36,720 bases of DNA. Origin: Methanobacteriota archaeon (lineage in GTDB: Archaea > Thermoplasmatota > Poseidoniia > MGIII > CG-Epi1). A model generated the notes under the pieces. It did no database searches. It saw only the letters and a list, made by a program, of their open reading frames with translations, and had not been told where the DNA came from. Position 1 is the stretch's first letter. The number at the start of each line of letters is the position of its first letter. Shown one piece after another: positions 2,599 through 36,720 of the stretch. The translations under genes and the position numbers were made by a program. Where the stretch lies: positions 1-36,720 of the forward strand of contig JAAZXP010000007.1 of assembly GCA_014240055.1 (NCBI GenBank), read 5' to 3'.

Positions 2599-3428
2599 GC
2601 TTGAAGTCTTTCAATAAGTTCAGCCTTGGTGCCTGAAACTGGTAAATCTTTTTCTTTTAACAATTCTTTTAGTTCAGCTACTTTCATTTTACTATAGTCA
2701 GTGTCTTCAGCTTCAATTTCTTCTTCAACTGCAGGCGACTCTTCTTGTGCAACTTCAGTTTCTTTTGCCTTTGGAGCTGGTTTAGTATTAGCTTCCTCGA
2801 TTATTTTTTCTAATTCATCATCTTCTGGAGGTACTTCCATAAGACTTGTTGGATTCATAACATGGATTTTAGAAATTTCAACTCTTTTTGTTGGATACGT
2901 AGACTTCAACATGGTTGCAACTTCCTTACTTAGATCACCAGAATATATCTTTTTTAGAGTTTCAGATATGTTTAATTTAGTAAGAGATTCATCAATACAC
3001 TTGTGTGCAACAGCTCTCAAAACTCTTTCCTGGGATTTCTTTATTCTTTTATCAACCATTATAATTGGTTTAATTCTAATTTGAACATCATCTTGTAAAT
3101 TTAAAACAAAGTTACAATCTATACGACTATTCTTTCTTCTGGTTAGCGCTCTTTTGTAGTCTGAAGTTAAACGGTGACCATCGAACGAAGTGAAAGCATT
3201 ATTTCCCCTTACTTCATTAACTCTAAATTTTATCATAAAATTTTTTTGATTAAAATCACCAGTTAATTTTTCTAAAGGAACTTCGGTTACTCTACCATTG
3301 ACAACCTCTGGGCTGTCGGCAGGTGTGTGTGCCATTATTGCGTAATTAAACATGGAAGGTGCATGTAATTGGTACCACATTTTGTTCTTCCATTTGTCTT
3401 TAACTTTTGCTCGGGTAACTTTGGCCAA
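2595..3428 (-). CDS. rps3ae: 30S ribosomal protein eS1 (S3Ae) with acidic linker and C-terminal SAP domain
   Basis: N-terminal ~200 aa matches S3Ae (KVKDKWKNKMWYQLHAPSMFN..., RVLRAVAHKCIDESLTKLN, EISKIHVMNPT). C-terminus DYSKMKVAELKELLKEKDLPVSGTKAELIERLQA is a canonical SAP motif. Confidence 0.93.
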   Translation of the reverse strand: MAKVTRAKVKDKWKNKMWYQLHAPSMFNYAIMAHTPADSPEVVNGRVTEVPLEKLTGDFNQKNFMIKFRVNEVRGNNAFTSFDGHRLTSDYKRALTRRKNSRIDCNFVLNLQDDVQIRIKPIIMVDKRIKKSQERVLRAVAHKCIDESLTKLNISETLKKIYSGDLSKEVATMLKSTYPTKRVEISKIHVMNPTSLMEVPPEDDELEKIIEEANTKPAPKAKETEVAQEESPAVEEEIEAEDTDYSKMKVAELKELLKEKDLPVSGTKAELIERLQA

Positions 3429-3514: not shown

Positions 3515-4315
3515 ATGTTTGACAAACTATTGCTTCCTCTAGACCCTTCGAAGCGTTTGAAACCAGCACAAGATTATGCTATTGCGTTAGCTAAACGACT
3601 AGAAATCCCTCTATTTGCAGTTTTTGTAAGTAATCCATCTAAAACAGGAACTATTACTGCTTCAGGTGAAACTCAAAAGGGTATTGAAGTTCTCGGTGAG
3701 AGACAATTAAATCAATTTATTGAAGGTGTTTCTGATGTTAAGATTAAATCGATATTAAAAACTGGTAAAAGACGGAAAGTTCTAGCTCAATTAATTGATG
3801 AGGGAGTTGCAGACACTTTAATTCTTGGTCCTTTCAGGTCTATGCTAAGTAGATTATTTACAGGTTCAGAGGTTGAAAGAATTTTAGATTCCGAATCTTC
3901 CCATGCCTTTGTAGTTAGAGAGGATCATCCTCTTCCAGGGCCGGGTTCTCCGGCTTTAGTGGTTTTTGATGGGCTTTCATTATCTAAAGATGCTCTTAAG
4001 AGAATCGAAGATTTTTCATTAAAATTCAAGTGTGATATAGAGTTATTGCATATTGGTACTGAAATTTTTGGAGGTGCTGAAGCTATCGATAAAGCGGTAG
4101 AAATTTTAAGGGAAAAATTAGGAACTGAAGTATTAGTTACTTCTAAAATTGTTCCCTTTAGTTTCTTTAAAACTCGAAAGAGTATTGCAAATTCGGTAAT
4201 AAGTTCAACAGGAGCGCGTATAGTTATTCTTCCAGATATTGAAGATGCAGTTAGCGATAATCTAATTCACCAATTGGTTTTGAGTGCGTCAGTTCCGGTG
4301 TGTGTTCTAAGATGA
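3515..4315 (+). CDS. Universal stress protein, two tandem UspA-like domains
   Basis: MFDKLLLPLDPSKRLKPAQDYAIALAKRLEIPLFAVFV and a second half ALVVFDGLSLSKDALKRIEDFSLKFKCDIELLHIG. The ORF-track start at 3494 is TTG; a TATA-like TTAAATATA about 25 nt upstream favours ATG 3515. Confidence 0.8.
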   Translation: MFDKLLLPLDPSKRLKPAQDYAIALAKRLEIPLFAVFVSNPSKTGTITASGETQKGIEVLGERQLNQFIEGVSDVKIKSILKTGKRRKVLAQLIDEGVADTLILGPFRSMLSRLFTGSEVERILDSESSHAFVVREDHPLPGPGSPALVVFDGLSLSKDALKRIEDFSLKFKCDIELLHIGTEIFGGAEAIDKAVEILREKLGTEVLVTSKIVPFSFFKTRKSIANSVISSTGARIVILPDIEDAVSDNLIHQLVLSASVPVCVLR

Positions 4316-23356: not shown

Positions 23357-26300
23357 TTGATAGACAAAAATAATCGGATAGTTAACGCCAGTGTTTTGTT
23401 GCTGATGGCATTTTTATTCGTTGTTTTTGTTGCAGATGATTCTGAAGCTGCGACTTACAAAGTTGATAGTTTAGGCGGTTCAGATTATACTAACATAACA
23501 CAAGCTGTCGAGAATGCATCTGCTGGAGACACAATTAATATCGCCTCTCGAAATTATTTTGATGCGGTAGATGTTGATAAGAGATTAACGATTATTGGTG
23601 GAAATTATGGTGTCAGCTTAAACAATTTGTATAATTATTGCTATGAGAACGATCTTATTGGATATTATACCTTTGATAATTCTGGAACCTATGTTAGTGA
23701 TAGGGTATGGTGTGAGAGTAACTATGGATATTTATCAGGGGCTGTTCGAACTCCCGGTTTTACTGGCGATTATTCAGTAGATTTTGACGGCGATGATGAT
23801 TATCTTGCAATAGATCATGATTCAGTCTATAATGTTTCTAAAGTTTCAATAAGTAGCTGGATTAATATCGATGATAATAATACTGATACCAGAACTATAT
23901 TTTCTAATTATCAAGAGGGGTCCACGCGTCATGGTTATGAAACATTTGTAAATGCTGACGCTAATTTCGGATTTCAATTTGGTTTTGGAAGTAGCTCAGG
24001 TTCATGTCACTCAGATACTGAAATCACTGAGAATAATTGGACACTTGTTACAGCCACTTATGACGGATCAAATATCAAATTATACATTAATGATGAATTA
24101 GATAAGACATGTGGCTATGCTCAGGGTATATCTGATAGTGATGGTAAACAAATTTTTGGGTCTTCAGACCATGATTCAGACAGCACCTATGATAATTTCT
24201 TTGATGGGACAATAGATGAACTGCTAATATGGAAGAAGGCATTAGGTCAGACAGATGTCGAAAATATTTATTGGGGTGGTAATGCAAAACCACGAATTAA
24301 TGCAAGTGAAGGTAGTTATGCCATAAGACTAACAGTTGACAATTCTGTTGTAAGAAATATTGAAGTTGCATTCACTGGCCCAGATATTGGCGAGAGTAGT
24401 GGAGATGCCGGTTTGGTAATTCAAGGTACGGATGGCGATCCAATAACTGGAGTTACAATTTCTGATGTGATATCAAAATATGATAGAAATGGTCTTAGAG
24501 TCTCTAATGCTAAAGATATATTCATTAATTCATTTAGTTCACAGGGATGTGATACTGGCAATGGCCTTAAGACAGGTGTAACTCTTTACAACGTAACAAG
24601 TTCTGAAATGTGGAATGGTCATGTGCAATGTGCTGAAACTGCAGGATACTTGTTTACTTCAGGAAGTAATAATAATATTTTTAATACGATTCAAGCATAT
24701 AGTTGTAAAGTAGGTTTCAAAGTAATATCTAATGGAAATTATTTCAATAATACTTATCTAGGCAACAATGACGATGTAGGTATTTTGTTTTATGGATCTG
24801 ATAACAATCAAATTAATGATGGAAATTACTATAGCAATAAATATGCCATAGGCTTCACACGAGGTGCTGAAAATAATCGGATCAAAAATCTAAACTTTGA
24901 TGATAATGATGATTATGATATTCACCACGGTTATGATTCAAACACAACTAGAAATGGTTGGAATAATATATTGATAGATACCGAATTTGAGGATTTATCT
25001 ATAGATTCCAATTCTAGACTTTTAGAGAAGACTCTGATAGAGACAACTATTACAGATAATGGAACCTATGCCTGGAATAGAGTCAATAAAACATTAGATA
25101 GTGATAGAAGGGCTTACTCAGGTACAAATTCTTTTTGGGCTGGAAATAGTGATGAGGATGAGTATTTTAGAAATTGGAATGTTACTTTCAAGATGAGTTC
25201 AGATATTAGTCTTCCTAGTGGAGGATTAGATGAATCTCGAATATTAGAGATAAGAACATGGTACAAGACAGAAGAAAATTTTGATGGTGGTAGAGTATAC
25301 ATTACCAAGGATCAAGAAAGTACTTGGAATCTCTTAACGCCTTTAGGTGGTTATGATAGTTTGATGAATGATGGTTCTGATTGTGATAATAACGAGAAAG
25401 CTTTTACAGGAGATAAATCGTCTTCTGATTGGCAAAATAAAAAGTTTAACTTATCTGGTTACAGAGGCGAAGATGTTCGAATAAAGTTTGTTTTCTGTAG
25501 TGATTCAGGCACGGAAATGGAAGGTTGGTACATCGATAATGTAAAAATTTACAAAGATGTGGATTCAACCAATGTTGCATATTTTGATGATTTCGAAAGA
25601 TTAGGTCATAGGTGGGTGGATGCTAGAGGCTGGGTCCATGAAGGAAATCCAGAATATGATGGAAAGAAAGATGCAGATATCATAATAATCGAAGATACTA
25701 GTTCCGAAACTTTAGTTAATAAATCAATCAATAAGGATATGAAGATTCATCTGAAATTAGATGAAAGCGGTACTAGTAGTGCATATGATTCTTTGGCAGG
25801 ACAATATTGGTATAGAGCTGGCAATACAAATTATGTTTCAGGATTGTATGGTAATGCAGCTAATTATGATGGGAGTGGAGATTCTCATTACTCCTCATAC
25901 GATTATATTTCAACGTCTCCTTATAGATTTGATGAACTAACAGTTTCAAGTTGGGTTAATTTTGATTCATTTCCATCTAGTAGTACTGATTATGACACGG
26001 TAGTAGCTATGGATAGAGAGGGTCAGTTTAGATTACAAGTTAATAGCAGCGGGAATCCTGTAGCTTATGGTTATTTTTATAGTCCTTCAGGTGAAAAAAG
26101 GGCTATTGGAGATGATGCATTAGTTACTGGTGTTTGGTATCATCTTGCAGCAACCTGGAGCGAGACTACAGACGATATCAAACTTTATGTTAATGGCACA
26201 TTAGTCAAAACTTATTCATTTTCAGAAACTACTCCTTATCTTCGAACTCTTAGTAGTTATATGTACATTGGAAGAGATTACAACGGCCATTACATGGATG

Positions 26301-29300
26301 GTAAAGTTGATAATGTACAAATTTGGCAAGAGGATTTCTCAGCCCGTAATATCAAAGCTATTTATGAGCATCCAATTAATGGACCTGTTCTTTATTCTAC
26401 AAAACATTATGGAGGTTCCGATAGTAAAACCGATAGTGAGGGTAAATTAGATGATATTTATGTAACAACTAAAATTTATGATGGCTCATCATCAGGTTCA
26501 GTAGTAGATACTTACATTGGTATTAGATATGGCGATTGGACGCGCGAAATTGCTAAGGCTACTATAACTGATAGTAAATTAGAAGCTAAGGTTTTTGATT
26601 TCCGTGTTTATAATCGTAATAAAGATAATCTGTATTATTCTTTGTCATCTGCAGTTTCCGGAGCTAGTAGTGGGAATACTCTCGAATTATGGCCTGGGAA
26701 GTATAAAGAAAATATAGAGGTCACGACAAAGATTGCTATACTAGGGGCTGGGACAACTAGAACGATTATTGATGCGAGATATCGAGGTCCAGCACTCAAA
26801 TTCACTAATTACCAAACTGATTATTCATCAGTTAAAAATTTACGAGTTACTCATTCCTCTAACCAATCCAGCAGTTGCCAGTCTTCTGCTCAATATGGAG
26901 GGGCAATATATTCATACTATTCAGATTTTCTAACAATTGATAATGTTCATTTCTTTGAAACCTATATTGGTTATATGTCATGTTATGCAAATGATAATAC
27001 AATTAAAAATTCAGTATTTGATAGAGGTTCTATCAGCAGTTATCATTCTGGAATATATTCTTATGGCGGCATTAATTACGATATAAGAAATAATGTAATT
27101 ACAAAATATTCATATGGTCTGTATCTTTATTATAATAATTACGGTTCACACTTTTTTAATAATTCTATCCATAATAATACTAATTATGGGATATACCTGT
27201 ATTATTCCGGTCACTCTAGTTACGCTAGTGATCCTCTTATTTTCGAAAAGAATAGTCTAGTTGACAATAATTATGGTTTTTACAGAGGAGACACTTCTAG
27301 TAATTATGGCCGATACATCCAATTTAAAGATAATTTAGTTAAAAGTAATTCTAATTATGGGATATATTGTTATTATTATTGCCAAGATTGGAAAGTAGAA
27401 AACAATACGTTTGATGGTGATGACGATCAAACTTATGGCTGGTACACTTATAGATACCAATATAGAACCGAATTCGGAAATAATACTTTTAGAGACCACA
27501 CAAGTAAAGATATTTATCTTCAATATTGTGGAACTGGAACTAATGCTAATAAATTCTTTTACAACACTTATTCTACTATTACAGTTTCATCCGGTTGTCA
27601 AGTTGATATTTACAATAATCTTAATGTAAAGACTGTAGAAGAAGATAGTGATGCTTTTTCTAATGTAGAAATTGAAATTAAAGATAGTTCTAAGACTTAT
27701 TACGAAACTTCACAATGGGGTGGTTCAGATTCTTTAACGGATAGTAATGGTTTTATTTCTAGTTCGATGCTTATACGCTCAGGATATTATGCCTCTAGTT
27801 CAACTCTAACTGATAATAATATTACTGTTAATTTGGCTTATGGGGTCAGGGCAAAATCTACTTGGATTAATTTTGATACTGATACTACTAAGGCCGTTAC
27901 AGTTCCCGACGCTTTCCGTCTCGGTGTTGTTAAAAATACAAATACTAGCACAATTTACACTAGTTTTTCTTCTGCAGTCAATGCTGCAAGCACAAATAAT
28001 GTTCTAAATATTTGGGCGTGGACTTATAATGAAAATTTTGTAATAAATAAAGGAATTACAATAATTGGTAATTCAACAGCTAGTTCGATCATAAACGGTG
28101 GAACTGGAGACTACGCAATTGAGGTCAAATCTAACGGCGTCACAATTAAGAATTTAACACTGAACGGCGCTTCCGATAGTTTACTTTATGCTGGAAATTA
28201 TAATAATCTTGAAGTTGAAAACGTAGTTATGGGTTCTAGTTCCTCTAATTATGGAATTTATTTTGATAGAACAAGTGATACTACTATAACAAGCGTAACT
28301 GTAAATGATACAGATCGTAAATCAGTTTACATTGATGACGGAGATACGATTACCTTCAAGAATAGTTATTTCATGAATTCTTCTTCTTCACATGGTTTTG
28401 AAATTTCAGATAGTGAGGATATAATACTAGATAATGTTTTCATTTACAATGCTGGTTATGATGGTTCCTCAGCCTATGGATTGTATGTTTCAGGAAGTGA
28501 TAAAGTCACGATTAAGGGCACTACAAAGGTGGGCTCTAGTAAATCGTATGAGCTTTATGCGACATCCTCAACAAATTTGAAAATATATAATTCTACATTT
28601 ACAGGTAAAAATTTAGCTTTAATTGAAGACTCAGATAGCTTTTTGGTGGAAAACAGTGTTTTCAAAGATACTTCCAGCGGCGATAATGGCGTTTACATCA
28701 AAAATACAGATAGTGGAATCTTTAAATTTAATACAATAACAAATTCGGCATCAGATGGCACTTCTGATTTTGGTTCGATATATTTGACTAGTTCATCTTC
28801 TAATCAAATTTTGAATAATACAGTTACCAATTCAGGAAGATCAGGAATTCATCTTAAGTCTAGTTCAAATGATAACAAGATTTATGGAAATACAGTATCT
28901 TCAAGTAATTTACATGGTCTTTATGTTCAATCCTCTGATAATACGTTAGTTCGAAACAACTCATTTTCAAGTTCGAGTATTTATGGAATAAAAATTTCAA
29001 GTTCTGATAATGTTGTAATTGATAACAATACATTAGATTCGAATTCTAATTATGGTATTTATCTTTCTTCATCAGATACTGGAATTATTAAGACTAATAC
29101 TATTTCTGATAATCAAGGTGGAATATATATCACCGGTTCAGACGATGTAATTATTTCTTCGAATACCATAGATGATCATTCATTATATGGTGCATATCTT
29201 GCAGATTCGAAAAGAGTTAAGATTAAGAAAAATGTAATCAAGAACAGTCAAAGTGATGCCTTAGTTCTTTCCTCAAGTTGTGATAATGCGTACATTGATA

Positions 29301-32300
29301 ACAATACAATAAAGAACAATGGTTTAACATCCTCAGGAAGAGCTGTGAAATTGTATGAGGTTGATAACTCGGTATTGTATAATAATTCAATTGAATCTAA
29401 CGAATACACTGGAATGTCTATTGTTGCATCTAATAACAATAAAATCATTCAAAACATAGTAAAAGGTAATGGAAAATATGGGATATCGGTAAGTAATGAT
29501 TTTACCAAATCTGCTAATAATACAATCAAATCTAATACTATTAATGATAATGAAGATCACGGAATTTACAATTTAGGTATCTATACCAAAATAATCAATA
29601 ACACGATTAAATATAATGAAAAGGATGGTATTAACATACAATCTGCAGGCGCTAGAACAAGTATTGAACAGAATACAATTACTGATAATGAAGATAATGC
29701 AATAAGCATTTTGGCCAATTATGTAGTAATTAAGTTGAACACGATTGATGGTGCAACTTCCGATAGTGCAATCAATGGCCTCAATTCTAAATCTATATCT
29801 ATAACGAATAACACGATTGAGGGTGGTCTTCAGGGAATTAAGATTTCGAATGGTACGAATTCTTTCATCTACAATAACACTATAACATCTAATTCCGAAA
29901 CTGGAATTTACTTATTGGGAGGATCTCATTCAAGTGAAATAAAATTAAATACAGTTAAGGATAATGAAGATGTAGGAATTCATGTTTTAAGTTCGGATTT
30001 AGTAGTAGTTAAGAATAATATTATTGAAGACAATAATGGATATGGAATTTATGGTTTCAATTCTAAGTTACTTGAATTTCAAATTAACACAATTAAAGAT
30101 AACGATGGAGGGGTAAAGTTCAGTAATTGTGATTATTGTAATTTAACTTCGCTAACTATTTCTGATAACGGTGGAAGGGGTATTTGGTTCTTAAGTGGTT
30201 CTGATAATAATTACATTAAGCATGTGACTTCTTCCAGTAATAGTATTAAAGATGTATATATTCAAGATTCAAATCATAATACTGCTTTTAATTTTACATT
30301 TTCAACAATTTCACTAAATACAAATGCGACACTTACAATTACTTCAAATTTGGAAATTGTATTCCAAGATGGTGGTGGAGATCCATTTGAAGGCATTGAT
30401 TTCGCACTATTGACTGCCGGTGTCAAGGTGTATTCTACACCTTTCTATGGTGGTTCTGATGCAGTTTCAGATTCCAACGGTGAAGCTGGAGCTACATTCT
30501 CTCTTAACTATAGAATTTACAACGGTAGTTCAACGCCAGACACAATTTCTAACATAATTAAGTATCACTATGGTGTGAGAAGTAAAGAAAAATCAATTGA
30601 TATGAGTACTTCCCATACTGAAACAGTTTCAGTACCTTCCTATTGGGTAAAAGGTCTTGTTAGAAATACAGACTCAAGTACAGATTACTATAAGATCCAA
30701 GATGCTATAGACAATGCTTCTTCTGGCGATACTTTACATATTTGGGCATGGAAATATAGTGAGAATGTAGAAGTTGATGAGAGTATAACAATAATTGGTA
30801 ATGGAACTGGAAATACAACTCTGAATGCAACATCTAGTGGTAAGGGTTTCGATATAACTTCAGATGATGTTACAATAAGAAATATTAATGTTGAAGGCTG
30901 TGGTAGTACAGATTCTTACAATGGTTTCCAGTTGTCTGGAGATGATATTACTATCGAAAATGTAATAGTTAAGACGTGTTACAGAGGTGCAGCCATAGGA
31001 GGTTCAGGTGCTTGGATAGGCAATTCTACATTTTCAAATAACTCCAATAACGGTATTGAAGTGTTTATTGGGGATACTTCTACTACTGCAGTTAAGATTT
31101 ACAAGAATACATTATGGTGGAACGGCAATCATGGTATCAGGAGTCTTGAAGATGATGTAATTATAAGCGCCAATAATATTAGAAATAATACCGAAAATGG
31201 AATTTATTTAAGTGGTGCTGAAGATGCAGTTATTTCAGATAACATTATTGTTGATAATAAAGATAATATAGATATTTACAGCGATTCAGCACGTACACTG
31301 ATTAAGAATAATTTGGTATCCAGTGCAACTTCATATGGCATGAGAATCGACGGTACTGCTTCAAATAATATTATAATTGAAGGTAATACAGTCCAAAATA
31401 ATGGTGTAGATGGAATATATATCAAACATTCCGATTATTTCTATCTAGGAAACAATACAATTTCAGGAAGTGGAACTTTTGATTTAAGGTTCTCTGCAAC
31501 TACTATTGGTAATTCTGCTAAGAATACCACTTTCTCAACTATTTCAGTTCATTCAAATGCTTATTTTGCAATTTACAATGATTTAACATTGAAGTTCATG
31601 CAAAATGCTACAGTTGGCTTTGATGAATTAGATGTTAAACTTGTTAGTGATAGTTCTACTAAGTATGCAACTTCTTACTATGGTGGCAGTGACTCTAAGA
31701 CAAATACCAATGGATTAATTAGTACAAATTTCACTTTAAAATTCAGAATATATGATGGAACCTCTACACCTGATGAAGCAACTACAACATTGTATTATCA
31801 TTATGGAGTTCGTGCTAAGGCTTACAATCTGAATATGACGACTTCTCATACAGAGACAGTATCAGTTCCTTCATATTGGAAAGATGGTTTAGTTGAGAAT
31901 TTGGATAGTGGTCTGAAATCTGCAAGTATACAGGATGCTATAGACAATGCATCCTCTGGCGATACACTGAAACTATGGTCCTGGAATTATGTTGAAAGTG
32001 ATATTGAAATAAATGAAAGAGTGACTATTATCGGTAATTCATCAGGAACAGTATCAATTAGTGCCAACTGGGAGAATTCAGTATTTAATATTCAAACAAA
32101 TACTATAACTTTGAAGAATTTGACTCTCAAGAGAAGTAGTAATTCTACTGATGAAGCTTGTATCAAAACTACAGTAGGTACTGGAATATTGATAGATAAT
32201 GTATTGATGAATAATTGTGGTATTGGTATTTTAGTCAAGACCAGTAATGTAGTTATTTCTAATGTTACTATTGAAGATTCAGTAACTGATGGAATAGTTG

Positions 32301-35300
32301 TCAAAAATACAGCTAGTAATGTACGAATTGAGAATTCAACAATTAAGAGAAGTGGAGATGATGGAGTCCAACTTGAGTCTAATGTTTATCTTTACAATAA
32401 TACAATTTCGTCGAATACCAATAGAGGAATTTATGTTATATCAGGTTCAGATTATGCTAAGATTAGGTACAATACAATAGACGACAATGATGAACAAGGA
32501 GTCTATGTTTTCGGTGTACATCATGTTGAGATTAGAAATAATGTAATTGAAGATAATGAAAATTATGGAATACAATTAAAAGATGCTAATTTTACACAAA
32601 TAAGAGATAATACAGTTGATGATAATGATGGTGGTTTGAGAACAGAATCGACATATAATTGTAATATTACAGGAAGTACTTTCAAAAATAATAATGGTAA
32701 AGGAATTTGGTTTACCACTACTTCAAATGGAAATAATATTAGAGACACAGTTGCTACGGGAAGTTCAAGTAATGATATTGAATTAGATGATTCTAAGAAG
32801 AATACTGGATTTAATTTCACATTTGGTTCAGGGAGTATCGATGTTGATTCAGATTCAGATTTCCGTGTGATGAATACTTTGAATATTAAGTTTACAAATG
32901 GTTCAGAGGCATTTGCAGGTGTAGATCTAGAATTATTCAATTATGATACCATTGTTTATGCAACTCCATTTTACAGCGGTAATGATGCTGTTTCATCAGC
33001 TACTGGATTTATCAGTGGTGAATTGACTGTTGCTTACGAGATTTACAACGGAAGTTCTACTACTGAAGATGTGGATACGACTCTCAAGTATCACTATGGT
33101 GTAAGAGGTAAATCAATAGATGTGGATACAGGAACTTCACATACTGAAATCGTGGATGTTCCTTCATATTGGACGAAAGGACTTGTTAGGAATACGGATA
33201 CAAGCACAGATTACTACAAGATTCAATATGCAATAGACAATGCTTCAGCCGGAGATACACTGAACATTTGGGCCTGGACATATTATGAGAATATTGAGAT
33301 TAGTAAGGAATTAACAGTAATTGGCAATGGAACTGGAGATACAACAATTAATGGTAGCTTTATAGATAATACGATTAAAATAACAGCAAGTGATGTAGAA
33401 TTAAGTTATTTTACTGTAATAGGTGGAGGAAATAGTACAAATACTAAAAGTGGAATTCACTTAAGTGGAAGTGATATTAAACTTTCAAACTTAGTTATCG
33501 ATTATGGTTATCAAGGTTTGTATACCTCTGGTTCTTCTAATACAGTATCTTATACAATTATCAAAAACCAGGACAGAGATGGTTTGCTTGTGCAGGGAAC
33601 TACATTTACTTTAATGAATTCCACAATATCTGATAATGGTTATCATGGATTATATTTCAATACGGGTGGTTCAGGTTCATTCATATACAATAATACTATA
33701 GAAAATAGTGGTGGAAGAGGAGTATACATTTCCCAGTCATCTAATATTAGAATTTCCTTTAACACAATTACAGATTCCTCTGGAAATGATGCTAGTGATA
33801 GTGGAGCAGGAATTTGGATTGAAGGTTATTTATCACAAAACATTAGAATATTAAATAATACAATTAAAGATAACAAACATGGAATACATAGTTGGTCCGG
33901 AGGTCAGGGGCCAAGTGATATTTCAGTTATTGGTAACCAAATAAGTGATAATGAGAAATATGGTATTAAGATAACAAAGAATTCAACGCATTGGAAACTT
34001 TGGAATAATACTATAACAGACAATGATGAATACGATATTTCTTTTTCAGATACTGGTTCAGATAATAATTATGCAGTTAATACCGAATTTGATACAATAT
34101 ATGTAAATTTTGGATCATCGCTTACAATTAGAGAATATTTAGTATTAGATGTAAATGATGCTTCTGGAGCTAATATGAGTGGTATTGACATCAAAGTTAT
34201 GGAAGACGATGTCCAGAAGTATGCAACTGATTACTTTGGCGGTAGTGATCCTAAGACAGATTCATCGGGAACTATTGCAACTTTCTTGATAAATTCAATG
34301 AAGTATGATGGTAGTTCAACCCCTACAACAATACCAACCTATGTTACAGCTAGAAATCACGACTGGGTTGAAACTTTCACATCTGATCCTTCTTCTACAG
34401 TAGATATAACTGTTCCAGATCTCCGTGTTCAAAATATAAGGACTGGAACTTTAACTTATCATATCCAGACATCCATTGATGCAGCTGAAGAAGGAGATAC
34501 AGTAAGGGCTTGGAATGGCACTTACTATGAAAATATTGATATTACTGAAGAGTTGGCATTGAAAGGTAATGGAACCTCTACAATAATTAATGGAAATAGT
34601 GGTAATGCAATTGAAGTTAGTGAAGATAGTGTTACCATTACAGATATACAAATAGTATCTTCAGAAAATGGAATTTATCTAAATGGTATTGATGATTTAA
34701 GAGTTTATAATATAAAGTTTGTAAATAATGAACATGGTCTTTATGTTGAAGACTCAACAAATCTTGTTCTTAATAACAGTATATTTGATGTGGATGATTA
34801 TGGAGTTTACTTCACGGGTACATCTGGTTCTATAGTTAGAGATAATTCTTTCCGTAACGGAACAGATGCTGGAAATTATTGTATTTATCAATCAGAGTCT
34901 GATTCAAATGGTAATACACAAATTATAGGCAATACTTTCAACGACTGTTATACAGCTTGGAAATCTAGTAGTAATGCGAATACATTTAGAGATAATACAC
35001 TAAAAGATAACCAATATGGAGTTTTACTTGCCGGTACTGCATCCCATGATAATCTGATAAAAGATAATACATTTGATGATTCTGATACTGCAATATACAT
35101 TTACAATACAGCTCATGACAACATTATTTTTGAGAATAGCTTTGATGATTCTGATGATTATGATATCAAATTAAGTGATTCTTATGATACAGTATCCTAT
35201 AACAATACATTTTCTTCAATTTCAGTAGCTTCAGATTCCAATATGTGGATTAAGGTGTATCTTGACCTAACCGTCTCTGATAATGCAAGTAATGCCTTTT

Positions 35301-36472
35301 CAAATGTAGATGTTGAAGTCAAACAAGATAATTTAGTTGTTTATTCATCAACATATTTCAGCGGCGACGATCCTAAGACAAATACCACTGGTCAAATTTC
35401 GACCTTCCTAGTGGCTACTTCTCAATACAATGGAAGTTCAACACCAACTGCAGTTACTACTACAATTACTGCACGTTATTCGGATTGGATTTCTTCAAGT
35501 GCTTACAACATAAATAATGCAGTATCTCTAAATGTAGCTGATTTCAGAGTTCAAAATCAAGATTCCGAAATAATGTATTATTCGATTGGTGGGGCAATTA
35601 ATGCAGCTAATACTGGCGATACACTTTCAATTTGGAAAGGTACTTACTATGAAAACATTATTATAACTAAAGAGATAACTCTTGTAGGAAATGGAACCTC
35701 TCAAACAATAATCAATGGTAGTTTATCAGGTACTGTTGTTACGGTTGATGCTGATGAAGTGGTAATCGATAATTTAGCGATTATTTCTAGTGGTTCTGAT
35801 GGGTTTGGTTTATTAGTTTCAGAGGGAGATGGAGAATATAAGAATCTAAAACTATCTTATAACAATGTATCTTATTCTTCAATTGGTGACTTTAATGAGT
35901 TGTCATCCAGTGTTATAACGAATAGCAATTTTGGAGTTATAATAAATGGAGATAATAACGTAGTTACTCAGAATACTTTTTCAGATAATCAATACTCAAT
36001 ACACTTTGCTTATACTTCAGAAGATAGTAGGGCAGACAACAATGAAATTACTGATGGGACTCATGCAGGTATTTCTTTGCATGGTACTGAAGAAATAACT
36101 ATTAGAGATAATTATATTCACAATAACTCGGGATACGGTATCCGATTGACAGGCTCTGCTGAAGAGAACATCATTTTCAATAATGATTTAGATTATAACT
36201 CTCTTTACTCAATATATATTTATGAATCTGGAAACAATTCAATACATAATAATACCTTCAAGTCAAACGATGATGGTCCAGTTTTCATAGAGAATTCTTA
36301 CAATAATATTGTACAAGATAATGCTTTCAATGCTAATGATGATTATTTGACCATTGATGGTGGAGGTCAAAATAGTATATTGTTTAACACATTTGCAGAA
36401 AGTGGTATACTTCTTCAAAATGCTAATAACCAAATTATTACAGGGAATACAATAACCGATGCTTCAGCCTGA
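23357..36472 (+). CDS. Giant secreted multi-beta-helix protein (PbH1/NosD-like repeats, LamG-like and MAM-like insertions)
   Basis: Uninterrupted 4371-aa ORF, TTG start, signal peptide (NASVLLLMAFLFVVFVADDSEAA). Long runs of ~22-25 aa rungs such as NNTIxxNxxxGIYLxxSxxxxIxx; repeated N-cap xxIQDAIDNASSGDTLxIWxxxYxENIxIxxxITIIGNGT. Confidence 0.93.
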   Translation: MIDKNNRIVNASVLLLMAFLFVVFVADDSEAATYKVDSLGGSDYTNITQAVENASAGDTINIASRNYFDAVDVDKRLTIIGGNYGVSLNNLYNYCYENDLIGYYTFDNSGTYVSDRVWCESNYGYLSGAVRTPGFTGDYSVDFDGDDDYLAIDHDSVYNVSKVSISSWINIDDNNTDTRTIFSNYQEGSTRHGYETFVNADANFGFQFGFGSSSGSCHSDTEITENNWTLVTATYDGSNIKLYINDELDKTCGYAQGISDSDGKQIFGSSDHDSDSTYDNFFDGTIDELLIWKKALGQTDVENIYWGGNAKPRINASEGSYAIRLTVDNSVVRNIEVAFTGPDIGESSGDAGLVIQGTDGDPITGVTISDVISKYDRNGLRVSNAKDIFINSFSSQGCDTGNGLKTGVTLYNVTSSEMWNGHVQCAETAGYLFTSGSNNNIFNTIQAYSCKVGFKVISNGNYFNNTYLGNNDDVGILFYGSDNNQINDGNYYSNKYAIGFTRGAENNRIKNLNFDDNDDYDIHHGYDSNTTRNGWNNILIDTEFEDLSIDSNSRLLEKTLIETTITDNGTYAWNRVNKTLDSDRRAYSGTNSFWAGNSDEDEYFRNWNVTFKMSSDISLPSGGLDESRILEIRTWYKTEENFDGGRVYITKDQESTWNLLTPLGGYDSLMNDGSDCDNNEKAFTGDKSSSDWQNKKFNLSGYRGEDVRIKFVFCSDSGTEMEGWYIDNVKIYKDVDSTNVAYFDDFERLGHRWVDARGWVHEGNPEYDGKKDADIIIIEDTSSETLVNKSINKDMKIHLKLDESGTSSAYDSLAGQYWYRAGNTNYVSGLYGNAANYDGSGDSHYSSYDYISTSPYRFDELTVSSWVNFDSFPSSSTDYDTVVAMDREGQFRLQVNSSGNPVAYGYFYSPSGEKRAIGDDALVTGVWYHLAATWSETTDDIKLYVNGTLVKTYSFSETTPYLRTLSSYMYIGRDYNGHYMDGKVDNVQIWQEDFSARNIKAIYEHPINGPVLYSTKHYGGSDSKTDSEGKLDDIYVTTKIYDGSSSGSVVDTYIGIRYGDWTREIAKATITDSKLEAKVFDFRVYNRNKDNLYYSLSSAVSGASSGNTLELWPGKYKENIEVTTKIAILGAGTTRTIIDARYRGPALKFTNYQTDYSSVKNLRVTHSSNQSSSCQSSAQYGGAIYSYYSDFLTIDNVHFFETYIGYMSCYANDNTIKNSVFDRGSISSYHSGIYSYGGINYDIRNNVITKYSYGLYLYYNNYGSHFFNNSIHNNTNYGIYLYYSGHSSYASDPLIFEKNSLVDNNYGFYRGDTSSNYGRYIQFKDNLVKSNSNYGIYCYYYCQDWKVENNTFDGDDDQTYGWYTYRYQYRTEFGNNTFRDHTSKDIYLQYCGTGTNANKFFYNTYSTITVSSGCQVDIYNNLNVKTVEEDSDAFSNVEIEIKDSSKTYYETSQWGGSDSLTDSNGFISSSMLIRSGYYASSSTLTDNNITVNLAYGVRAKSTWINFDTDTTKAVTVPDAFRLGVVKNTNTSTIYTSFSSAVNAASTNNVLNIWAWTYNENFVINKGITIIGNSTASSIINGGTGDYAIEVKSNGVTIKNLTLNGASDSLLYAGNYNNLEVENVVMGSSSSNYGIYFDRTSDTTITSVTVNDTDRKSVYIDDGDTITFKNSYFMNSSSSHGFEISDSEDIILDNVFIYNAGYDGSSAYGLYVSGSDKVTIKGTTKVGSSKSYELYATSSTNLKIYNSTFTGKNLALIEDSDSFLVENSVFKDTSSGDNGVYIKNTDSGIFKFNTITNSASDGTSDFGSIYLTSSSSNQILNNTVTNSGRSGIHLKSSSNDNKIYGNTVSSSNLHGLYVQSSDNTLVRNNSFSSSSIYGIKISSSDNVVIDNNTLDSNSNYGIYLSSSDTGIIKTNTISDNQGGIYITGSDDVIISSNTIDDHSLYGAYLADSKRVKIKKNVIKNSQSDALVLSSSCDNAYIDNNTIKNNGLTSSGRAVKLYEVDNSVLYNNSIESNEYTGMSIVASNNNKIIQNIVKGNGKYGISVSNDFTKSANNTIKSNTINDNEDHGIYNLGIYTKIINNTIKYNEKDGINIQSAGARTSIEQNTITDNEDNAISILANYVVIKLNTIDGATSDSAINGLNSKSISITNNTIEGGLQGIKISNGTNSFIYNNTITSNSETGIYLLGGSHSSEIKLNTVKDNEDVGIHVLSSDLVVVKNNIIEDNNGYGIYGFNSKLLEFQINTIKDNDGGVKFSNCDYCNLTSLTISDNGGRGIWFLSGSDNNYIKHVTSSSNSIKDVYIQDSNHNTAFNFTFSTISLNTNATLTITSNLEIVFQDGGGDPFEGIDFALLTAGVKVYSTPFYGGSDAVSDSNGEAGATFSLNYRIYNGSSTPDTISNIIKYHYGVRSKEKSIDMSTSHTETVSVPSYWVKGLVRNTDSSTDYYKIQDAIDNASSGDTLHIWAWKYSENVEVDESITIIGNGTGNTTLNATSSGKGFDITSDDVTIRNINVEGCGSTDSYNGFQLSGDDITIENVIVKTCYRGAAIGGSGAWIGNSTFSNNSNNGIEVFIGDTSTTAVKIYKNTLWWNGNHGIRSLEDDVIISANNIRNNTENGIYLSGAEDAVISDNIIVDNKDNIDIYSDSARTLIKNNLVSSATSYGMRIDGTASNNIIIEGNTVQNNGVDGIYIKHSDYFYLGNNTISGSGTFDLRFSATTIGNSAKNTTFSTISVHSNAYFAIYNDLTLKFMQNATVGFDELDVKLVSDSSTKYATSYYGGSDSKTNTNGLISTNFTLKFRIYDGTSTPDEATTTLYYHYGVRAKAYNLNMTTSHTETVSVPSYWKDGLVENLDSGLKSASIQDAIDNASSGDTLKLWSWNYVESDIEINERVTIIGNSSGTVSISANWENSVFNIQTNTITLKNLTLKRSSNSTDEACIKTTVGTGILIDNVLMNNCGIGILVKTSNVVISNVTIEDSVTDGIVVKNTASNVRIENSTIKRSGDDGVQLESNVYLYNNTISSNTNRGIYVISGSDYAKIRYNTIDDNDEQGVYVFGVHHVEIRNNVIEDNENYGIQLKDANFTQIRDNTVDDNDGGLRTESTYNCNITGSTFKNNNGKGIWFTTTSNGNNIRDTVATGSSSNDIELDDSKKNTGFNFTFGSGSIDVDSDSDFRVMNTLNIKFTNGSEAFAGVDLELFNYDTIVYATPFYSGNDAVSSATGFISGELTVAYEIYNGSSTTEDVDTTLKYHYGVRGKSIDVDTGTSHTEIVDVPSYWTKGLVRNTDTSTDYYKIQYAIDNASAGDTLNIWAWTYYENIEISKELTVIGNGTGDTTINGSFIDNTIKITASDVELSYFTVIGGGNSTNTKSGIHLSGSDIKLSNLVIDYGYQGLYTSGSSNTVSYTIIKNQDRDGLLVQGTTFTLMNSTISDNGYHGLYFNTGGSGSFIYNNTIENSGGRGVYISQSSNIRISFNTITDSSGNDASDSGAGIWIEGYLSQNIRILNNTIKDNKHGIHSWSGGQGPSDISVIGNQISDNEKYGIKITKNSTHWKLWNNTITDNDEYDISFSDTGSDNNYAVNTEFDTIYVNFGSSLTIREYLVLDVNDASGANMSGIDIKVMEDDVQKYATDYFGGSDPKTDSSGTIATFLINSMKYDGSSTPTTIPTYVTARNHDWVETFTSDPSSTVDITVPDLRVQNIRTGTLTYHIQTSIDAAEEGDTVRAWNGTYYENIDITEELALKGNGTSTIINGNSGNAIEVSEDSVTITDIQIVSSENGIYLNGIDDLRVYNIKFVNNEHGLYVEDSTNLVLNNSIFDVDDYGVYFTGTSGSIVRDNSFRNGTDAGNYCIYQSESDSNGNTQIIGNTFNDCYTAWKSSSNANTFRDNTLKDNQYGVLLAGTASHDNLIKDNTFDDSDTAIYIYNTAHDNIIFENSFDDSDDYDIKLSDSYDTVSYNNTFSSISVASDSNMWIKVYLDLTVSDNASNAFSNVDVEVKQDNLVVYSSTYFSGDDPKTNTTGQISTFLVATSQYNGSSTPTAVTTTITARYSDWISSSAYNINNAVSLNVADFRVQNQDSEIMYYSIGGAINAANTGDTLSIWKGTYYENIIITKEITLVGNGTSQTIINGSLSGTVVTVDADEVVIDNLAIISSGSDGFGLLVSEGDGEYKNLKLSYNNVSYSSIGDFNELSSSVITNSNFGVIINGDNNVVTQNTFSDNQYSIHFAYTSEDSRADNNEITDGTHAGISLHGTEEITIRDNYIHNNSGYGIRLTGSAEENIIFNNDLDYNSLYSIYIYESGNNSIHNNTFKSNDDGPVFIENSYNNIVQDNAFNANDDYLTIDGGGQNSILFNTFAESGILLQNANNQIITGNTITDASA
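23461..23610 (+). repeat. N-cap copy 0 of the giant protein (start of helix 1)
   Basis: YKVDSLGGSDYTNITQAVENASAGDTINIASRNYFDAVDVDKRLTIIGGNYG matches the later internal N-caps. Confidence 0.8.
23651..24290 (+). other. LamG/concanavalin-like domain 1 of the giant protein
   Basis: LIGYYTFDNSG...YSVDFDGDDDYLAIDHDSVYNVSKVSISSWINID...NNWTLVTATYDGSNIKLYINDELDKT...FDGTIDELLIWKKAL. Confidence 0.85.
25016..25610 (+). other. MAM/immune-inhibitor-A-like beta-sandwich domain of the giant protein
   Basis: RILEIRTWYKTEENFDGGRVYITKDQESTWNLLTPLGGYD...WQNKKFNLSGYRGEDVRIKFVFCSDSGTEMEGWYIDNVKIYKD. Confidence 0.65.
25738..26380 (+). other. LamG/concanavalin-like domain 2 of the giant protein
   Basis: MKIHLKLDESGTSSAYDSLAGQYW...NAANYDGSGDSHYSSYDYISTSPYRFDELTVSSWVNFD...VWYHLAATWSETTDDIKLYVNGTLVKTYSFSE...GKVDNVQIWQEDF. 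Confidence 0.88.
26411..26757 (+). repeat. Linker + N-cap cassette 1
   Basis: GGSDSKTDSEGKLDDIYVTTKIYDGSSSG...LYYSLSSAVSGASSGNTLELWPGKYKENIEVTTKIAILGAGTT. Confidence 0.75.
27719..28079 (+). repeat. Linker + N-cap cassette 2
   Basis: GGSDSLTDSNGFISSSMLIRSGYYASSSTL...AYGVRAKS...VPDAFRLGVVKNTNTSTIYTSFSSAVNAASTNNVLNIWAWTYNENFVINKGITIIGNSTA. Confidence 0.8.
30449..30810 (+). repeat. Linker + N-cap cassette 3
   Basis: GGSDAVSDSNGEAGATFSLNYRIYNGSSTPDTISNIIKYHYGVRSKEKSIDMSTSHTETVSVPSYWVKGLVRNTDSSTDYYKIQDAIDNASSGDTLHIWAWKYSENVEVDESITIIGNGTG. Confidence 0.92.
31682..32047 (+). repeat. Linker + N-cap cassette 4
   Basis: GGSDSKTNTNGLISTNFTLKFRIYDGTSTPDEATTTLYYHYGVRAKAYNLNMTTSHTETVSVPSYWKDGLVENLDSGLKSASIQDAIDNASSGDTLKLWSWNYVESDIEINERVTIIGNSSG. 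Confidence 0.92.
32975..33338 (+). repeat. Linker + N-cap cassette 5
   Basis: SGNDAVSSATGFISGELTVAYEIYNGSSTTEDVDTTLKYHYGVRGKSIDVDTGTSHTEIVDVPSYWTKGLVRNTDTSTDYYKIQYAIDNASAGDTLNIWAWTYYENIEISKELTVIGNGTG. Confidence 0.92.
34238..34579 (+). repeat. Linker + N-cap cassette 6
   Basis: GGSDPKTDSSGTIATFLINSMKYDGSSTPTTIPTYVTARNHDWVETFTSDPSSTVDITVPDLRVQNIRTGTLTYHIQTSIDAAEEGDTVRAWNGTYYENIDITEELALKGNGTS. Confidence 0.88.
35360..35700 (+). repeat. Linker + N-cap cassette 7
   Basis: SGDDPKTNTTGQISTFLVATSQYNGSSTPTAVTTTITARYSDWISSSAYNINNAVSLNVADFRVQNQDSEIMYYSIGGAINAANTGDTLSIWKGTYYENIIITKEITLVGNGTS. Confidence 0.88.
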
Positions 36473-36487
36473 AACATATGGTACTCT

Positions 36488-36505
36488 GAACCTTGTGTGA
36501 GGTTC
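36488..36505. terminator. Hairpin GAACCT-TGTGTG-AGGTTC downstream of the giant gene
   Basis: Perfect 6-bp inverted repeat starting 15 nt after the giant gene stop; no T-run immediately follows, so terminator function is uncertain. Confidence 0.3.
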
Positions 36506-36546
36506 GATAATAAACTCAATATTGGAAGCTTTGATATTCTTCACTT

Positions 36547-36720
36547 TCAATAGTTCCGAGACTGGCCCTTAGACAGTCTCCTTGGTATTACTTCAAGCGA
36601 AAGAAGTGTAATTCCGGAATCAATTATTTGCTTTGTTTGTTCTAAATTCCTAAAAGGATCAGCCATGTGCCCTTTTAAACTTAAATATTTTCTGGCCTCA
36701 GAAACGGTATAAAAAGATCC
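36547..36720 (-). CDS. Partial CDS (3' end or decayed fragment), possibly NAD(P) transhydrogenase alpha-subunit-like
   Basis: Open minus-strand frame from the window edge: GSFYTVSEARKYLSLKGHMADPFRNLEQTKQIIDSGITLLSLEVIPRRLSKGQSRNY*. The tail resembles the PntA/AlaDH-type G(V/I)T..(S/A)(L/M)(E/D).(V/I)PR...(A/G)QS segment, but family assignment is weak. Confidence 0.35.
   Translation of the reverse strand, partial: GSFYTVSEARKYLSLKGHMADPFRNLEQTKQIIDSGITLLSLEVIPRRLSKGQSRNY

Follow-up and report, generated by a model that had tools for sequence, protein, structure and literature searches.

A giant transmembrane protein of marine group III archaea with serial capped beta-helices and a predicted cytosolic NTPase, probably a surface receptor

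The locus described here raises two questions: where does the protein encoded by a 13.1-kb open reading frame end, and what would an archaeal cell do with a surface protein of this size? The window, i.e. the whole stretch of DNA analysed, is 36,720 bases long and comprises an entire contig (GenBank JAAZXP010000007.1, here C113) of assembly GCA_014240055.1, which totals 1.23 Mb in 135 contigs. From position 23357 the frame stays open over 4,371 codons, with TTG as its start and a TGA stop at 36470-36472 (Table 1). A sequence-only reading had taken it for a secreted archaeal protein of 4,371 aa composed of serial right-handed beta-helices. Its archaeal origin is secure, the relatives being the marine group III euryarchaeotes CG-Epi1, AH-321-L02, AG-343-J07 and others, but both the length and the secretion had to be revised.

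Table 1. Features of the window, with copies of the longin-like domain found elsewhere
Feature	Position	Strand	Residues	Basis or remark
Open frame, 4371 aa	23357..36472	+		N-terminal ~63% of the ~6,900-aa gene; gene continues past the TGA at 36470
Signal-peptide-like N-terminus: hydrophobic run, then ADDSEA	23357..23449	+		Sequence; likewise in G015
N-cap, beta-helix 1	23483..23605	+	43-83	Linker+N-cap profile, i-E 3.7e-8
Laminin_G_3 domain 1, between cap and rungs of helix 1	23654..24286	+		Pfam; approximate boundaries
Beta-helix 1	24287..25021	+		Pfam, repeat period; approximate boundaries
InhA-like MAM domain	25181..25636	+		E 3.7e-13
Laminin_G_3 domain 2	25898..26353	+		Pfam
Cassette 1 (linker + helix 2 N-cap); start overlaps laminin-G domain 2	26219..26788	+	955-1144	Cassette profile
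Cassette 2 (linker + helix 3 N-cap)	27542..28108	+	1396-1584	Cassette profile
Beta-helix 3, longest, about 720 aa, period 23	28109..30271	+		Pfam, repeat period
Cassette 3 (linker + helix 4 N-cap)	30272..30838	+	2306-2494	Cassette profile
Cassette 4 (linker + helix 5 N-cap)	31505..32074	+	2717-2906	Cassette profile, structure model
Cassette 5 (linker + helix 6 N-cap)	32798..33361	+	3148-3335	Cassette profile, structure model
Beta-helix 6, non-orthologous to relatives' helix 6	33389..34066	+		33-34% identity vs 63-78% in flanking linkers
Cassette 6 (linker + helix 7 N-cap)	34064..34600	+	3570-3748	Cassette profile, structure model
Cassette 7 (linker + helix 8 N-cap)	35183..35731	+	3943-4125	Cassette profile
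Chimeric contig end	36473..36720	n/a		Exact pieces of C33, C58, C52
Longin-like domain copies	A6; L074:4604-5014; L072:4072-4500; L099; L102; L106; L110			

The length is an artifact of the contig end. The protein breaks off in the middle of a helix, 248 bases short of that end, and the bases behind the stop include exact copies from other contigs of the same assembly: 36484-36531 from C33, 36559-36667 from C58 and 36666-36720 from C52. Contig C84 (L011, G000:C84) has a similar end, its bases 1-55 being an exact copy of window positions 30458-30512 fused to a gene for a subunit of RNA polymerase. Chimeric ends thus recur in this assembly, as from amplification or assembly chimeras, and its remaining contig ends deserve distrust. 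Since the stop belongs to such an end, the protein is not 4,371 aa long; the frame covers the outer two-thirds of a protein of ~6,900 aa. The concern that the frame might be an assembly chimera is misplaced for the frame itself and justified for the sequence behind it.

The rest of the gene can be recognized in the same assembly. In congeneric genomes, frames of 6,928 (G015), 6,909 (G001) and 6,899 aa (G004) carry both halves, the 5' ends of the G001 and G004 frames lying at contig edges. Contig C62 of the window's assembly holds a 2,458-aa frame that begins mid-linker without a start. The window protein aligns to G015 residues 21-4351 at 65% and the C62 frame to residues 4461-6928 at 63%, with about 109 aa in between unseen in the window's own genome. 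In each of the three relatives, the best matches to window cassettes 1-7 and to the C62 cassettes are cassettes 1-7 and 8-10, respectively, in order (rows that set C62 against helices 3-8 in one comparison were misplacements and were left out). The intact G015 gene is flanked by the left neighbours of the window gene (DNA polymerase B and flavin reductase) and also by the right neighbours of the C62 frame (a presenilin-like gene, assigned by eye, a phosphoesterase and a helicase). Judged by this collinearity and synteny, the C62 frame is the missing C-terminal part of the window gene. That the gene truly ends at 36472, encoding a secreted protein, with the C62 frame as a separate gene, would agree with the stop present in the assembled sequence, but it is scarcely credible given the scraps of three contigs behind that stop, the recurrence of such ends at C84, and the opening of C62 near the very point in the relatives where the window sequence stops.

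Within the window, Pfam finds Beta_helix in 20 stretches (E 5.5e-190), NosD in 20 and Laminin_G_3 in two; Beta_helix reaches 624 bits against a curated cut-off of 25.9 and NosD 458 against 23.6. A profile of linker plus N-cap detects one single N-cap and seven cassettes, the latter with i-E values from 1e-41 to 2e-84. This profile was seeded with four of the seven window cassettes; because unseeded relatives give the same sites, and the order is identical in three relatives, the eight N-caps are genuine and no product of chance. Eight is also the number given by the sequence-only reading, but its coordinates for caps 2-8 fall inside the linkers, about 200 bases upstream of the cap. Repeats with a period of 21-26 are seen in the helices, exceeding all shuffles in helix 3 and individually weak in the shorter helices. 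One laminin-G domain interrupts helix 1, while the MAM domain and the second laminin-G domain lie between helices 1 and 2. A search of the window for DNA tandem repeats returned none, which argues that the cassettes are old, and N-glycosylation sequons show no enrichment in the protein.

Two units (window 31505-34636) were modelled with AlphaFold2, using four orthologues. The model contains two separate solenoids, mostly at pLDDT 75-94, with cap helices at 142-147 and 573-578; the beta linkers of ~130 residues between the solenoids fall below pLDDT 50. Foldseek matched this model to right-handed beta-helices, including PL6 alginate lyases, AlgE4, RbmB, tailspikes and the adhesin PfbA. Profiles and model together support an outer part built as a chain of separate capped solenoids and not as a single continuous one. 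The assignment to NosD/PbH1-type right-handed helices, and the picture of beads on a string with a cap for each helix, are thus upheld, with the difference that the whole protein has ten helices and not about eight. The linkers between the helices are beta linkers, for which the proposed sandwich fold is a possibility at that model confidence.

The architecture of the whole protein is well supported: ten beta-helices, three laminin-G domains, one MAM domain, an Ig-like stalk, one membrane helix and a cytosolic part. Two of the laminin-G domains and the MAM domain sit near the far end, and the third laminin-G domain sits near the membrane, followed by the Ig-like stalk and a single hydrophobic helix, after which comes RRNR. 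The signal peptide and this positive charge give the orientation, with the NTPase on the inside of the cell. The protein is therefore not secreted as had been supposed; its complete orthologues end in the membrane helix and about 900 cytosolic residues. From the membrane inwards these are a P-loop NTPase that has STAND-like motifs, the longin-like domain, a beta-sandwich and, last, an acidic tail with DDLLGKLDEL at its end.

In the P-loop NTPase (~445 residues, after the membrane helix), Walker A (GEPGVGKT), a DD Walker B, R141 and a GxP-like GSP, all assigned by eye, are invariant among six diverse copies. Profile matches in these copies (AAA_16 in 6/6, nSTAND3 in 5/6, NB-ARC in 4/6) all stay below the cut-offs, with 22.2 bits against a gathering score of 32.6 for AAA_16, 19.6 against 27.2 for nSTAND3 and 12.7 against 23.5 for NB-ARC. 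A sequence search of the PDB with the NTPase gave P-loop matches only. Motifs and weak profile matches point to a STAND-type protein, for which NTPase activity is predicted. Soluble paralogues with a DSVI.KS-like tail were seen beside a gene for a HerA-like ATPase (L071:3748-6282) and beside one for a propeller-like protein (L072:8144-9859).

The domain behind the NTPase, of ~130 residues, carries the motif LIY.DGR ... D.DI.SGML.AI..FVKDSF ... WDGD and has neither a Pfam family nor a credible sequence match in the PDB. Built from eight sequences, the AlphaFold2 model of the cytosolic region scores poorly (mean pLDDT 42.8), and from it only the longin-like stretch was used, cautiously. At a pLDDT of about 36-75, Foldseek matched this stretch to longins and AP-complex subunits, among them Sec22b (TM 0.72 by target) and AP2 mu, which weakly suggests a longin fold. 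Of 297 Thermoplasmatota genomes, 34 encode the domain; they represent 22 of 139 genera, and the richest genomes hold at least 13 copies. It stands immediately behind the membrane helix in many large surface proteins of the Ig type (1.5-2.1 kaa). It is also found inside AAA/STAND-type ATPases (L099, L102, L106 and L110), on a response regulator next to a histidine kinase, on a ThiF-like protein and, in the window's own genome (C91), on a smaller beta-helix/membrane protein without the NTPase. This company of receptors, ATPases and a response regulator is the best evidence that the inner end may serve signalling.

A profile of the cytosolic module matched 19 of the 195 genomes of the class, 18 of them in the window's family, some via the longin-like part only. 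By this search the module belongs to marine group III and hardly occurs elsewhere. The nineteenth genome belongs to MGII (G021; L067, G021:C33), and since its assembly, UBA23, has a 96% match to a marine group III copy, the NTPase module there probably reflects mis-binned marine group III contigs rather than transfer. In a sample of the phylum, the NTPase turned up in one more family (G203), where it lies behind Ig/PKD domains and a membrane helix. A sister genus encodes a shorter form, about 3,860 aa long and with fewer cassettes, in the same gene order. Several fairly complete congeneric genomes (G008, G009, G011 and G012) had no match to the NTPase, so the genus can do without it.

Identity between species is 91-98% in the NTPase, as opposed to 32-94% in the outer modules. 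Fourfold sites are only about 47-59% identical and near saturation, which implies strong purifying selection on the NTPase. In helix 6 the window protein is 33-34% identical to four relatives, among which this helix reaches 54-86%, whereas the flanking linkers stay at 63-78%. For G015 and G004, identity is 86% in helix 6 and 54-56% in its neighbours, helices 5 and 7. With five genes compared and one clear case, helices seem to be swapped singly while their linkers stay in place; we regard this as a lead, and the exchange could not be dated owing to the near-saturation of fourfold sites.

What, then, could such a protein do? We favour, with a probability of about 0.62, a giant modular surface receptor of marine group III (CG-Epi1 lineage), ~6,900 residues long, which crosses the membrane once and carries a cytosolic NTPase. 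A beta-helix rises 0.48 nm per rung, so that some 125 rungs plus linkers would, as a rough estimate, form a rod of about 100 nm. The receptor would bind a ligand and signal: its laminin-G and beta-helix modules might bind glycans or the surfaces of particles or neighbouring cells, and the binding, clustering or pull could be transmitted via the membrane helix to the NTPase. The NTPase would switch state after this outside event, and the longin-like domain, the sandwich or the tail might recruit a partner.

The main rival is a giant membrane-anchored adhesin, in which the rod serves only to fasten cells to particles or to other cells, under inside-out regulation or anchoring by the cytosolic part, with no signal passed. 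Adhesins often contain laminin-G, MAM and beta-helix modules, PfbA is among the fold matches, and the exchange of helix 6 would fit surface diversification. An adhesin or glycan-binding fibre, as the sequence-only reading proposed, is conceivable for the outer part. However, the NTPase is the most conserved part of the protein, and among its relatives are soluble copies as well as Ig-type membrane proteins that have no beta-helices; a mere anchor would leave both points unexplained. The conserved inner part thus favours a receptor over a simple adhesin, and we consider the regulated adhesin rather unlikely. A surface sensor that detects viruses or other attackers through a STAND-type NTPase, on the pattern of defence systems, is suggested by weak matches to Nhi, AbiO, Avs4 and EruA and by the fast evolution of the outer modules. 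These matches are restricted to the P-loop region, though, neither a nuclease nor any other killing domain turned up in the protein, and the neighbours are housekeeping genes, making this reading improbable. We judge a surface array of polysaccharide-active enzymes, with lyase- or epimerase-like helices, to be highly improbable: the PL6 alginate lyases and AlgE4 epimerases are indeed the best fold matches of two helices, but at 9-18% identity such matches are generic for right-handed helices, the sequence families matched are the general Beta_helix/NosD ones, and no solved enzyme was matched by sequence.

Comparison with known systems places the candidate receptor between several of them. Huge archaeal proteins with Laminin_G_3, over 5,000 aa in length, have been reported with a function given as not understood (PMC11573180). 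The full-length protein shares their size and the N-terminal Laminin_G_3, while the passages that describe them speak of neither serial capped beta-helices nor a cytosolic NTPase. Proteins of the NosD/PbH1 type (PF05048, PF13229, TIGR04247) have the same cap and rung motifs, which score highly here, but the full-length protein differs in having ten helices per chain, each with a cap and linker. With no nos genes among the neighbours examined, only the fold is common with the copper-site maturation protein NosD. The NTPase has the Walker A, DD Walker B, arginine and GxP-like motifs of STAND/AAA_16 NTPases (NB-ARC, NACHT, nSTAND3), and is unlike them in scoring below all curated cut-offs and in lying behind a membrane helix under a giant ectodomain. 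Longin/roadblock domains, including AP-complex mu and sigma subunits and Asgard longins (PMC10933270), have the beta-beta-alpha-beta-beta-beta-alpha order tentatively predicted here; unlike the named longins, the present domain occurs in Thermoplasmatota surface proteins, lacks a sequence match to them and was modelled at low confidence. It is possible, though doubtful, that the protein represents an undescribed class of archaeal outside-in receptors, combining module-swapping glycan-sensing ectodomains, one membrane helix, a STAND-type NTPase and a longin-plus-sandwich module like adaptor-complex mu subunits, as a branch of a Thermoplasmatota-wide signalling system.

Huge laminin-G surface proteins of archaea have been known but unexplained, and the inner end of one can now be seen. 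With its conserved NTPase and longin-like module, what was loosely a "giant adhesin" becomes a receptor hypothesis that can be tested. For marine group III archaea, which are uncultured, such a candidate receptor would bear on what they sense or hold on to.
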